24,173 nt of DNA from a virus. How positions within the stretch are numbered: the stretch's first letter is position 1; each line of letters begins with the position of its first letter. The notes below the pieces were generated by a model that was not told the DNA's origin, ran no database searches, and was given only the letters and a program-made list of their open reading frames with translations. The stretch spans positions 1 through 24,173 of IMG/VR virus record IMGVR_UViG_3300032245_000335; one strand, given 5' to 3'. Below, piece after piece: positions 1,928-10,694 of the stretch. The translations under genes and the position numbers were made by a program.

Positions 1928-2194
1928 ATGGCTGAAATTACTACAAGTTTAGATTGGGACAGAGTTTCTATAGAATTAGAAAATAGTGCTAAACGCCTAG
2001 GACGTTATAGCCCAGAAATGCTACGGATCAGCAGTAACATTGGTGCTATGGTTAAGGAATTGGGCAAAGAAGAAATAACCTGCCGTAGACATGGCCGTCA
2101 AACACGCCAACATAAAGAATTATTGGATAAAATCAACCAAGAAATAGCCAATTTTGAAATGTATTTGACGTTTGGTACACTATTAAGTGGTTGA
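1928..2194 (+). CDS. Small hypothetical protein (88 aa), possibly leaderless
   Basis: I do not recognise this protein. It begins MAEITTSLDWDRVSIELENS and is rich in charged residues, with a probable helical character throughout (DRVSIELENSAKRLGRY, then ITCRRHGRQTRQHKELLDKI, then INQEIANFEMYL). It has no membrane segment and a single cysteine. The ATG at 1928 is preferred over an in-frame GTG at 1913 because the GTG lies inside the likely promoter. No ribosome binding site precedes 1928 and the predicted transcription start falls at the ATG, so the mRNA may be leaderless. An in-frame ATG at 2018 is another possible start. It is the first gene of a run of short genes behind sigma70-type promoters, a setting typical of early or middle T4-like phage genes. 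Its role is unknown. Confidence 0.6.
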   Translation: MAEITTSLDWDRVSIELENSAKRLGRYSPEMLRISSNIGAMVKELGKEEITCRRHGRQTRQHKELLDKINQEIANFEMYLTFGTLLSG

Positions 2195-2219
2195 CATTTT
2201 AACCAAAATCTGCTATAAT
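2191..2219 (+). promoter_or_regulatory. Consensus sigma70 promoter P2
   Basis: TTGACA at 2191-2196, a 17-nt spacer and TATAAT at 2214-2219 form a perfect consensus promoter. It begins inside the last codons of the preceding gene and drives the small-gene operon from 2243. The spacer contains AACCAAAATCTG (2201-2212), nearly identical to that of P1 and in the same register. Confidence 0.85.
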
Positions 2220-2872: not shown

Positions 2873-3065
2873 CGCAGAAGCACATCAACAGGAACTTGAA
2901 CACCAGCAATGGTTAGAAGAAAATCATCGGTGTTCGATATGTAGTTGCGATTATACATCAGACGAAGGCGGAATCGAAGGCTATATTGGTATACTACCAG
3001 CTAGTTTTTGCCCAACTTGTCTAAGTGGTGTAATTGATATGGTTGAACAGTTGACATCTGAATAA
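2853..3065 (+). CDS. Small zinc-binding-type protein (70 aa)
   Basis: The likely start is the ATG at 2853, which overlaps the end of the preceding gene by 20 bases; an upstream in-frame ATG at 2787 would make a much longer overlap. The product has a helical N-terminus (AEAHQQELEHQQWLEENH), then CSICSC at about 27-32 and CPTC at about 54-57, separated by EGGIEGYIGILPASF. Two Cys pairs at this distance suggest one zinc ion in a ribbon or treble-clef fold. I have an impression of similar short CxxCxC...CPTC proteins in marine T4-like phages, but cannot name a function. The next promoter (3051) starts within the last codons of this gene. Confidence 0.6.
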   Translation: MTAKLTSAEAHQQELEHQQWLEENHRCSICSCDYTSDEGGIEGYIGILPASFCPTCLSGVIDMVEQLTSE

Positions 3066-3078
3066 TACTCTGTATAAT
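3051..3078 (+). promoter_or_regulatory. Sigma70-type promoter P3
   Basis: TTGACA (3051-3056), a 16-nt spacer and TATAAT (3073-3078) make two perfect hexamers. It lies 25 nt before the ATG at 3103, which has TAAGGAA as ribosome binding site. This points to early or middle expression by host RNA polymerase. Confidence 0.8.
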
Positions 3079-3102: not shown

Positions 3103-4289
3103 ATGGCAATCAAGATTGATGGTATGAAAAAGAAAGCTAAAGTCAGCAATATCAATTTTAGCGATGAAAATATACAGGCAGTGAACCAATTTGGGACTAT
3201 GACCGTGCATTAACTTTTTCAGATGAAGAATTTGACCACCACTTGCGTAAAAGTTTTGCCTACTACAATTACTATTACGGTCCTAAAGATCTAAAGAAAT
3301 ATGTTGTGGCTTGGCTACGTCAACACGAAGGCGATAAAGGTGTACACAAACTAGATAAAGCCACTATCGATCGCTATCAACGATCAGCGGATGCCTTAAC
3401 ACCATTTACGGTCTGCGCACTGGTTAAAGCACATGATCGAGGTATGCCATTGCGTGATAAACACGTTGAATATATTCTCGATGCCGTTAAACGTGTTTTA
3501 CTATTAAAGTTAGATGAAGAAGAAACAGAAGTAAAGAAGGACGTTAAACCCGCAGTTCAAGTGCCAACTATCCAGGACCGCATGAATGAAGTAGCCAAGA
3601 AACATATCTTGTACTTTGAAATCTTAGAAGATGGATTGTTTGCTGGCGAGACTGTAGATCCTAAGGCCTATGAATATCTAACAAAGAATAACGTACCACA
3701 GGCATTGATTGGCAAGATATCAGCAGTGTTCGAACCACGCTATGCTGAACTTAAAGAAGCACGCAAAGGTGAAGACGAGCAACTTAAAGAAGGATATAGT
3801 CACTACAAAGCCGCAGACTATAAACGCTGTGAAGCATTCTATGAAAAACTATTTGCTGATTTAACCGCCTACAACCAGACTAAAAAGGCTACTAAGAAAG
3901 CTGCAGTCCGTAAGCCACCACAAAAAGAAAAACTAGTTAAGAATTTAAAATATCTCAAACAAGACACAGCTACTAAGTTAGTATCAGTTAATCCTGTAGA
4001 CATTGTTGGTGCTGAAGTGCTATGGGTTTATAATGTTAAAAATCGTAAGATTGGCAAATATGTAGCTGAAGATCAAGGTGGCGCATTGGGCGTTAAAGGC
4101 ACTACGATTACAGGCTACGACGCTAACAAGAGCACACAAAAAACTCTGCGTAAGCCAGACGAACAACTTAAACAATTCCTAACCAGCAGTAAAGTTGAGT
4201 TACGCAAGTATCTTGAAAATATCAAGACTACTGAGATCAAGCTCAACGGCCGTATCAACGCAGATACCATATTACTTAAAGTTCAATAA
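3103..4289 (+). CDS. Conserved T4-like phage protein of unknown function, apparent -1 frameshift near 3168
   Basis: Behind promoter P3 and a good ribosome binding site, an ATG at 3103 opens a frame reading MAIKIDGMKKKAKVSNINFS then DEN; it ends after 36 codons at 3211. The frame one base back is open from 3168 to 4289 and reads KYTGSEPIWDYDRALTFSDE then EFDHHLRKSFAYYNYYYG. This continues smoothly with the large reading frame, whose own first candidate start is a TTG at 3243 with no binding site. Joined, the protein would be about 395 aa. Its parts, including HHLRKSFAYYNYYYGPKDLKKYV and the C-terminal GRINADTILL, fit a family I recall from marine T4-like phages; its role is unknown. The middle (about residues 205-270) is Lys-rich and probably helical. 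The break could be a real one-base loss in an A run, an assembly error, or recoding. Confidence 0.7.
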
Positions 4290-4317
4290 TCCCCCTCAAG
4301 GTAGCGCAAAGGCAAAG

Positions 4318-4357
4318 TTATCCTGTTGTTGAATATAAATACACAATAACAGGATAA
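4318..4357 (+). promoter_or_regulatory. Inverted repeat enclosing the late promoter and gp13 ribosome binding site
   Basis: TTATCCTGTT (4318-4327) and AACAGGATAA (4348-4357) are exact reverse complements. Including a G-U pair and three more pairs, the stem reaches 14 pairs (4318-4331 with 4344-4357), leaving a 12-nt loop. The loop carries the late promoter TATAAATA (4334-4341). The right arm carries AGGA (4351-4354), the ribosome binding site of gp13. A transcript arriving from upstream could fold and hide this site; one started at the late promoter would lack the left arm. Confidence 0.75.
4334..4341 (+). promoter_or_regulatory. T4-type late promoter of gp13
   Basis: TATAAATA is an exact match to the T4 late promoter consensus and lies 21 nt before the ATG of gp13, inside the loop of the inverted repeat. 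Confidence 0.85.
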
Positions 4358-4362
4358 TTTAA

Positions 4363-5556
4363 ATGTCTGAATTACCAGCAAACGTTTCAGCAACCAGCGA
4401 TTTAACAGCGACCTTAAGTTTACCAACGGAGTCACTGTATAACAGTTATACAGGCACAGGCGCTGGACATATCGCTTTTGATGCTAATCTACAAGCACAA
4501 CTAGACTCAGTAAACTCATTGAAGAATGATATCACTGACTATATTCGCTTAAGACTAGGTGATCAAATCATCGATGTAGAAGCAGATAAAGAACACTACG
4601 AAATGGGTATTAAACAGGCACTGATCCGCTATCGTCAAAAGAGCTCGAACGCACAAGAAGAAAGTTATGCGTTTTTAGATCTATATCCAGAAACACAAGA
4701 ATACATACTGCCTAGCTATATTACAGATGTTCGTCAGATTTTCCGTCGTGGTATTGGTAGCGTTACAGGTACTACAGCCAGTCAATTTGAACCATTTAGT
4801 TCAGGTTATTTGAACACCTATATGCTAGTAGCAGGACGTGTTGGCGGGCTTACTAACTATGAACTATTTGTAGACTATCAAAAACTAGCTATGAAGATGT
4901 TTGGTGGGTTTATGAACTTTACTTGGAATAAAGTTACTAAGAAACTGACACTAGTTCGTAAGATGCCAAATCAAGGTTCTGGCGCAACTGTAAGACTAAA
5001 AAGTATGTCATCTACTGGTACAGCACCAGGAAGTACAGTTACTTTCCAAATATCACAAGGAAATCCTTGGACAGGGGTAGCTGTAGGTGGCAAAGTAACT
5101 ATTACAGGGTGTACTGTATCTGGGTACAACGGAACCTATACTGTTACCAGTGTAGACGCTACTCATCAAATATTTACATTCCTTAACACAGCCGCATTAG
5201 GCGCAACTGTTGTAGATGGAATGGCATTATCATCAACTCTTGTTAGTAGTCCTACCTCAGGAGACAGTGCTATTACAGAAACAGTATTGCTATGGTGCTA
5301 TAACTATAAACCAGATATCATGTTGTTAAACGATCCGCAGGTATTTCCATGGATACAGGACTATGCCTATGCTCTAGTCCTAATCAGTATAGGTAATGCC
5401 CGCGAAAAGTTTGCTTCTATTGCAGGTCCACAAGGTGGTAGTAGCTTAAACGGTGCTGTCCTCAAACAAGAAGGCCAAGAGCTATTAAAAGAACTTGATG
5501 AACAGATCAAGAACTTTGTTGATGGTGGTCAACCATTAACTTGGGTAACTGGCTAA
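4363..5556 (+). CDS. gp13: Neck protein gp13 with an inserted beta domain
   Basis: gp13 joins the filled head to the tail together with gp14. The 397-aa protein shows the family pattern I recall from T4-like phages: DYIRLRLGDQIIDVEADKEHYE (59-80), ALIRYRQKSSNAQEESYAF (86-104), YILPSYITDVRQIFRRGIGS (114-133), YLNTYMLVAGRVGGLTNYEL (149-168), MFGGFMNFTWNKVTKKLTLVRK (179-200), and near the end NAREKFASIAGPQGGSSLNG (345-364). Residues about 203-305 are extra: a Thr/Ser/Gly/Val-rich stretch with VTITGCTVSGYNGTYTVTSV, a pattern seen in many phage tail and fibre beta domains. The family sequence resumes at ETVLLWCYNYKP. The ATG has an AGGA site 8 nt upstream. In T4, genes 13 and 14 are adjacent; here gp14 lies 2.5 kb away on the other strand. 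Confidence 0.88.
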   Translation: MSELPANVSATSDLTATLSLPTESLYNSYTGTGAGHIAFDANLQAQLDSVNSLKNDITDYIRLRLGDQIIDVEADKEHYEMGIKQALIRYRQKSSNAQEESYAFLDLYPETQEYILPSYITDVRQIFRRGIGSVTGTTASQFEPFSSGYLNTYMLVAGRVGGLTNYELFVDYQKLAMKMFGGFMNFTWNKVTKKLTLVRKMPNQGSGATVRLKSMSSTGTAPGSTVTFQISQGNPWTGVAVGGKVTITGCTVSGYNGTYTVTSVDATHQIFTFLNTAALGATVVDGMALSSTLVSSPTSGDSAITETVLLWCYNYKPDIMLLNDPQVFPWIQDYAYALVLISIGNAREKFASIAGPQGGSSLNGAVLKQEGQELLKELDEQIKNFVDGGQPLTWVTG

Positions 5557-5614: not shown

Positions 5615-6316
5615 ATGTCACAAATCATTGGTATTGTGGGCTTTATTGGTTCCGGTAAAGACACTGTTGCAGACTATCTGGTTAATTTTCATGGTTACAA
5701 AAGAGAAAGCTTCGCTAACAGCTTAAAAGATGCTGTAAGTGTAGTGTTTGGATGGGATCGTGAACTGCTAGAAGGCCGTACTAAAGAAAGCCGCGAATGG
5801 CGTGAAACACGAGATGAATGGTGGAGTAAACGGCTTAAACGAGACATAACTCCTAGATGGGTCCTACAGTACTGGGGAACTGAAGTAGTGCGTAAAGGCT
5901 TTCACGATGACATGTGGGTAGCCAGTTTAGAACATCGCTTACTTAACAGCCAAAACGATATTGTTATTACAGACTGTCGTTTTCCTAACGAAATTAAAGC
6001 TATCCGCAACGCTGGTGGGCGTGTTATTCGTATTAAACGTGGCCCAGAACCTGAATGGTACGATGCAGCTAAAAGTGTAAACCGAGGCCCTAGTCGTAAT
6101 ATGTCGTGGGCTCTAAGCAAACAAAAAATGGAAAAACTAGGAGTCCATGCTAGTGAAACTGCTTGGGTAGGATCTAAGTTTGACGCAGTGTTAAACAATG
6201 ATGGTACGTTGGACGAACTGTACAGTCAAGTTGAACGCGAAATTACTAATAATCAGGCACAAGATCGCCTTGACGCCATCCTAAACCCTCTCGGGCAATT
6301 TCATATTGACAGTTAG
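5615..6316 (+). CDS. gp1: Deoxynucleoside monophosphate kinase (T4 gp1 type)
   Basis: A 233-aa protein, close to the 241 aa of T4 gp1, which phosphorylates dNMPs to dNDPs with ATP in the cytoplasm to supply phage DNA synthesis. The N-terminus has a P-loop, GFIGSGKDT (9-17), followed by VADYLVNFHGYKRESFANSL, the arrangement of this kinase family. Further marks are VLQYWGTEVVRKGFHDDMWV (83-102), a likely substrate-binding part, and DIVITDCRFPNEIKAIRNAG (114-133), which resembles the conserved DxRFxxE segment of gp1-type kinases. It has its own sigma70-type promoter and an AAGGAG site, so it is probably expressed before the late genes, as fits a nucleotide-metabolism enzyme set among late genes. 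Its last 71 bases overlap the opposite-strand gene at 6246. The exact substrate range cannot be read from the sequence. Confidence 0.88.
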   Translation: MSQIIGIVGFIGSGKDTVADYLVNFHGYKRESFANSLKDAVSVVFGWDRELLEGRTKESREWRETRDEWWSKRLKRDITPRWVLQYWGTEVVRKGFHDDMWVASLEHRLLNSQNDIVITDCRFPNEIKAIRNAGGRVIRIKRGPEPEWYDAAKSVNRGPSRNMSWALSKQKMEKLGVHASETAWVGSKFDAVLNNDGTLDELYSQVEREITNNQAQDRLDAILNPLGQFHIDS

Positions 6317-6596
6317 CGCAGACTGTTTTTAAGTTGAGTTGCTTGGCGTTATTTAAATCACCATCAATGTGATAGACAAATAGCTGTTCTTTATATTTGG
6401 CTTTGAAGCCACACTTTTCACAGTGTGGTTTTCTTTTATATCCTTCTAGCATCCAACGAGGTTTGGGCGCAGGTAGATTTCGTTTCTTTCTACAGCAAGA
6501 GTCACACTTAGATCTATAGTAAATCTTGCCATGCATTCGATAGTTCACTGCAACAGGTTTTTTACCACAAATTTCACATATTTTACGGTATTCCAT
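6246..6596 (-). CDS. Small Cys-rich HNH-like protein
   Basis: From the ATG at 6596 the product is 116 aa and begins MEYRKICEICGKKPVAVNYR. It has four Cys pairs: CEIC, CDSC, CEKC and CANC. Before the last pair stands FVYHIDGDLNNAKQLNLKTV, which resembles the HNH nuclease pattern in which a His is followed by an Asp/Asn-rich loop and a closing Cys pair. Short proteins of this design occur in marine T4-like phages and are often annotated as HNH endonucleases; whether this one cuts DNA is uncertain. A longer frame opens at a TTG (6623) with no support. CATAAATA ends only 5 nt before the ATG and no ribosome binding site is visible. The 3' end overlaps the dNMP kinase gene on the other strand by 71 bases. 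Confidence 0.65.
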   Translation of the reverse strand: MEYRKICEICGKKPVAVNYRMHGKIYYRSKCDSCCRKKRNLPAPKPRWMLEGYKRKPHCEKCGFKAKYKEQLFVYHIDGDLNNAKQLNLKTVCANCQYEIAREGLGWRQGDLVPDY

Positions 6597-6601
6597 AACA
6601 G

Positions 6602-6609
6602 TATTTATG
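6602..6609 (-). promoter_or_regulatory. Late-type promoter box abutting the HNH-like gene
   Basis: On the minus strand, CATAAATACTGTT is followed directly by ATG. The match to the late consensus is 7 of 8, extended by ACT as in many T4 late promoters. With only 5 nt between box and ATG, transcription would start at or near the start codon. Confidence 0.5.
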
Positions 6610-6657
6610 GGCGAACCTTTCAAAGGGCACCTAATACCATGAATTTAATCAAATAAT

Positions 6658-9944: not shown

Positions 9945-9956
9945 TATACGCACATA

Positions 9957-9978
9957 ATGGGAGGAGTGATCCTCCCAT
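9957..9978 (+). other. RNA hairpin with GUGA tetraloop after gp18
   Basis: ATGGGAGGA and TCCTCCCAT form an exact 9-bp stem closed by GTGA, a GNRA-type tetraloop. No T run follows, so it is not a standard terminator. It lies 12 nt after the gp18 stop and could protect the 3' end of gp18 mRNA or mark a processing point between gp18 and gp19. Confidence 0.65.
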
Positions 9979-10029
9979 AATGTAAACGAATAACAGGTAA
10001 ATACTATAAAGTATTAAAAGGAAAATAAG

Positions 10030-10663: not shown

Positions 10664-10694
10664 AAAAGCCCGGTTAAAATCCGGGCTTTTTTTT
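10664..10694 (+). terminator. Strong intrinsic terminator after gp19
   Basis: AAAAGCCCGG (10664-10673) and CCGGGCTTTT (10681-10690) form an exact 10-bp stem with a 7-nt loop, followed by a run of eight T in total (10687-10694). It closes the gp18-gp19 unit. Confidence 0.92.

Follow-up and report, generated by a model that had tools for sequence, protein, structure and literature searches.

The stretch of DNA analysed here (the window; 24,173 nucleotides, positions 1 to 24,173 of IMG/VR virus record IMGVR_UViG_3300032245_000335) carries the gene for the gp13 neck protein. Ahead of it on the same strand lie two sigma70-type promoters, an upstream gene and a hairpin that encloses a T4-type late promoter box:

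2191..2219, + strand: sigma70-type promoter, 12/12 consensus by motif match, conserved in relatives
3051..3078, + strand: sigma70-type promoter, 12/12 consensus by motif match, conserved in relatives
3103..4289, + strand: upstream gene between promoter and gp13, PHROG match to phrog_11903, split here
4315..4331, + strand: left arm of the hairpin, from the fold and the inverted repeat, with compensatory change in relatives
4334..4341, + strand: TATAAATA, T4-type late promoter box in the loop (4332-4343), from the sequence, with TAAATA kept in all relatives
4344..4360, + strand: right arm of the hairpin, from the fold and the inverted repeat
4347, + strand: predicted late RNA start, about 6 nt past the box and uncertain by a few nt, by analogy with T4 late promoters (PMC2988020)
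4351..4354, + strand: AGGA, the gp13 Shine-Dalgarno sequence (SD) in the right arm, from the sequence, with an SD in the right arm of all relatives
4363..5556, + strand: gene for the gp13 neck protein, head-tail adaptor Ad2 (PHROG match to phrog_211)

The gp13 leader in the window

An earlier note, made from the letters of this DNA, had described an exact 10-bp inverted repeat extending to 14 pairs with one G-U, and both figures hold. The segments TTATCCTGTT (4318-4327) and AACAGGATAA (4348-4357) form the core of the hairpin, which lengthens to 14 pairs between 4318-4331 and 4344-4357, one of them G-U, and the minimum-free-energy fold adds three more to give a 17-pair stem (4315-4331 with 4344-4360) around a 12-nt loop (4332-4343). 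This is the longest inverted repeat detected within the first 12 kb of the window. Folding 4300-4380 as RNA, a check that the earlier note had proposed, gave -28.2 kcal/mol against -11.4 +/- 2.7 for dinucleotide shuffles (z = -6.33), and none of 200 shuffles equalled it. The note had also placed a perfect late box in the loop and the gp13 ribosome binding site in the right arm. Both are indeed there, TATAAATA lying wholly within the loop at 4334-4341 and AGGA at 4351-4354, 8 nt 5′ of the gp13 ATG (4363). We do not use the box by itself as evidence, since its exact matches in the window are no more frequent than chance (2 observed, 2.7 expected); what is unusual is its position within a hairpin. 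The same box precedes other structural-region genes of the window, and these late genes have their boxes without a hairpin. A stem scan with permuted hexamers was not relied on because the permuted words overlap the same sites and are not independent, and in a search of Rfam the window gave no match to any curated RNA family model. Elsewhere in the window, GC-rich inverted repeats at 9952-9983 and 10664-10690 each lie just 5′ of a late box and a structural-region gene, the second being followed by a T-run like that of an intrinsic terminator.

The predicted accessibility of the SD depends strongly on which RNA carries it. In the window, opening the SD is predicted to cost 12.3 kcal/mol on the long RNA and 1.5 kcal/mol on RNA started at 4347, which bears out, as a prediction, the claim that late-started RNA would have a free ribosome site. 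Across 47 sequences the median predicted costs were 12.7 kcal/mol for read-through RNA and 1.0 kcal/mol for late RNA, and the late value was unaffected by the exact start anywhere from +4 to +9 past the box. By comparison, the predicted cost on long RNA is 0-1.8 kcal/mol for six further late genes of the window that share the box. A hairpin of this kind is not a general property of late promoters, an idea that we rejected because only 15 of 174 intergenic late sites in six genomes passed a strict guard test. One feature counts against a guard that acts through timing: the predicted late leader is very short, at about 16 nt, with the SD about 4 nt from its 5′ end.

The two upstream promoters named in the earlier note are both perfect (12/12) matches to the sigma70 consensus, and a terminator scan of the + strand found no terminator-like site between them and gp13. 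Among 38 sequences (the window and relatives, some of them near-duplicates), the 3 kb 5′ of gp13 contained 73 sense and 0 antisense matches of at least 11/12, against 2.4 in shuffles, and strong promoters of this type were present in 37 of the 38, always on the gp13 strand. The intervening phrog_11903 gene has an apparent one-base frameshift near 3170 in the window, either a sequencing error or a real break; the frame is intact in relatives, at about 385-410 codons. Relatives of this gene in phages phiM12, Cr30, OC, DLP6 and RHph_I1_18 lie near genes for RNase H, glycosyltransferase, glutaredoxin or PhoH, and these neighbours are consistent with an early or middle gene. Each of the seven longer genomes, namely RaK2, BF and five of the window type, has a gene for a gp55-like late sigma factor; the window being a genome fragment, this gene was seen in relatives only.

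Conservation of the stem and the selected molecule

The comparison set comprised 80 viral contigs with gp13 relatives, their best segments being 52-85% identical, and the loci that include the start codon gave 46 distinct upstream regions besides the window. All 46 have a hairpin, TAAATA and an SD in the right arm 5′ of gp13, the SD being AGGA, GGGA or CGGA; the hairpins of L069 and L071 are clearly weaker than those of the other relatives. The loop is invariant within the window group and the arm sequences diverge widely, as in L014 (CCCGTTTAAAG/CTTTAAACGGG), L032 (TCCGTATCAAG/CTTGGTACGGA) and L013 (GTCCTATTAGC/GCTAACAGGAC). Pairs were not counted from a MAFFT alignment, in which the position of the left arm varies with loop size among distant relatives, and the analysis relied on a swap test and a strand test. 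In the swap test, mean pairing was -15.9 kcal/mol when both arms came from the same phage and -11.6 kcal/mol when the left arm was taken from another; for eight dissimilar representatives the values were -12.3 (own) and -6.9 kcal/mol (swapped). None of 5000 permutations matched the observed pairing totals, a count that is no true probability since the sequences are related. Compensatory change is plain among the eight dissimilar representatives. The stem is thus kept by such changes where the box is kept, as the earlier note had suggested should be looked for, and loci that retain the box and lack the stem were found only in more distant phages and in a few exceptions. In most of these distant phages the gene ahead of gp13 is on the opposite strand.

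The strand test bears on whether the palindrome is selected as RNA or as DNA. At internal positions flanked by Watson-Crick pairs we counted 30 G-U against 8 A-C combinations (binomial p ~0.0005, uncorrected for relatedness). An inverted repeat flanking a promoter could be a binding site, and it is conceivable that the palindrome acts as DNA, for instance by binding a protein that regulates the late promoter. An excess of G-U over A-C is, however, not expected of a double-stranded DNA palindrome; moreover, the arm sequences vary widely with pairing retained, and most other late promoters lack such a palindrome. We therefore regard action as DNA as extremely improbable, and RNA of the + strand as the likely target of selection. 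Nor does the promoter itself explain the left arm, since in T4 late promoters, which have a TATA box about one helical turn 5′ of the start, the -35 region shows no sequence conservation (PMC2988020).

Putative guards and genome layout

Similar leaders occur in giant phages. In RaK2, BF, GAP32, CBB and related contigs, gp13 lies behind co-directional genes that are of early type where annotated, and a hairpin covers the SD in 12 of 12 cases, with a predicted opening cost of 12.3 kcal/mol on long RNA and 2.0 kcal/mol on late RNA. The box is here in the paired left arm, and in BF-type phages a T-run follows 3′ of the stem.

These leaders also bear on two other explanations of the hairpin. In the first its main role is to end transcription of the early operon, and the hiding of the SD is a side effect; this would suit both its place at the end of early-type genes and the T-run of the BF type. 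In the window and its relatives, however, no T-run comes after the stem, where sequences such as TTTAAATG or CAACATG are found instead; the gp13 hairpin is not called in the terminator scan, and a terminator has no need of fixed places in the stem-loop for a late box and an SD; we think this account very unlikely. The second, to which we give similarly little credence, sees in the hairpin the operator of an RNA-binding protein, comparable to the T4 gp43 operator, with the conserved TAAATA loop as the element recognised. The invariance of that loop in the window group would fit, but TAAATA also stands 5′ of other structural-region genes that have no hairpin, and in the RaK2/BF type it lies within the paired left arm, outside the loop. 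These two facts fit a DNA promoter box and not a signal in an RNA loop.

The position of neighbouring genes suggests that the hairpin, read as a guard on translation, tracks read-through into the gene behind it. At gp13, strong guards are absent from Atu_ph07, Phosso, Vibrio 2.275.O and five further distinct loci, in all of which the adjacent gene is on the opposite strand. Where the tail sheath gene follows an opposite-strand gene, as in the window and most relatives that include the sheath gene, it too is unguarded; in RaK2, BF and PA5oct it follows the co-directional kinase gene and has a guard. These layout contrasts come from few lineages, with orientation taken from simple ORF calls, and have exceptions. 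In PA5oct-like phages the neighbours are co-directional and there is, in most cases, a short hairpin just 3′ of the box; both PA5oct and L202 have a co-directional gene upstream of gp13 without a strong hairpin, which counts against a timing guard. A simple rule that co-directional genes are guarded holds only in part (exceptions are PA5oct gp13, L202 and L029). Within this assemblage of T4-like and giant phages, we tentatively put forward a possible rule, about which we are somewhat doubtful, that a late structural gene lying behind a co-directional early gene would gain or keep a late-promoter hairpin that hides its SD, and would have none when an opposite-strand gene shields it. Both gp13 and the tail sheath gene conform to such a rule; guards on tail fibre, nuclease and HNH genes are sporadic. 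A guard on the gene for a DNA/RNA non-specific endonuclease, seen in RaK2 and G003, was considered and is not generally conserved (4 of 41).

Several other arrangements were noticed in passing. Both the late box and the SD of the tail sheath gene lie inside a hairpin at L083:7564 (RaK2) and L086:5857 (BF). In the window a small HNH-like gene (6246-6623, - strand) lies between the dNMP kinase and tail sheath genes; in RaK2 a homing endonuclease instead separates gp13 from the kinase. Other strongly guarded late-type loci are L138:1928, L142:4476, L094:14039, L159:18281, L118:879 and L121:13210, their genes being tail fibre-like, two phrog_13789 (in different phages), an HNH endonuclease, RaK2 ORF155 and the RaK2 DNA/RNA non-specific endonuclease. 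There is also a second, smaller design: directly 3′ of the TAAATA box comes a hairpin of 5-7 bp, whose right arm carries the SD and whose left arm contains the predicted late start. It is found 5′ of Endonuclease_NS genes (L258, L249, L264, L269 and L278) and at gp13 (L174, L180, L181 and L186-L192).

A probable timing guard and its counterparts in T4

From the elements seen directly, namely the hairpin, kept in relatives by compensatory change, the box, the position of the SD, the conserved upstream promoters and the gp55 homologs of relatives, we infer that the hairpin is very probably a timing guard on gp13 translation, with the start point, read-through, block and release as its inferred steps. 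Early RNA from the promoters at 2191 and 3051 would pass through the upstream gene into gp13. Such long RNA would contain both arms and form the hairpin, and with AGGA base-paired we propose that ribosomes would be unable to start gp13. Once the gp55-type sigma factor is made, RNA polymerase would start at the TATAAATA box in the DNA of the loop, and the late RNA would begin about 6 nt past the box, inside the right arm; having no left arm, it would not fold and would be translated. The interpretation of the earlier note is thus supported as far as sequence can speak to it.

The T4 precedents that the note had cited are real. In T4 genes e, soc and 49 the SD lies in a helix on the early long RNA, and the late RNA is without the 5′ strand of that helix and is translated; for gene e, the structure on the long RNA cuts lysozyme synthesis about 100-fold (PMC3014915). 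For T4 I-TevI, I-TevII, I-TevIII and segB and for Aeh1 mobE, the position of the late promoter allows none but the early or middle RNA to fold over the ribosome site (PMC2988022). Neither a gp13 nor a neck-gene hairpin was named in any paper that we found in the open-access collection searched; the available passages of the CBB paper (PMC5259590) do not describe a hairpin in the gp13 leader, and we did not find covariation evidence of the present kind in the T4 reviews consulted. The mechanism is known, and it is the controlled gene and the depth of conservation that appear to be new.

The range of a T4 timing device, so far recorded mainly for lysis, accessory and mobile genes, would thereby come to include a virion neck gene. 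Dozens of natural variants, together with some natural controls, mean that sequence can be used to test whether genome rearrangement drives translational guards. There is also a caution here for phage RNA-seq, in that early RNA across a late gene need not amount to expression. As in T4 e, soc and 49, a helix is predicted to hide the SD of gp13 on the long RNA; as in these genes and I-TevI, the box is placed so that late RNA, from its inferred start, would lack the 5′ strand of the helix; and a gp55 late sigma of the T4 type is present, as seen in seven relatives. Unlike e, soc and 49, gp13 encodes a neck protein, belongs to another phage group and has its box in the loop of the hairpin, and its design is kept by compensatory change across very diverged relatives. 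Unlike I-TevI, I-TevII, I-TevIII, segB and mobE, which are homing endonuclease genes, it is a virion gene. There is also a likeness to the gp13 leaders of RaK2-, BF-, GAP32- and CBB-type giant phages, which share the late box, the hairpin, the SD in the right arm and the co-directional early-type genes upstream, and differ from the window in having the box in the left arm and not in the loop and, in the BF type, an added T-run.
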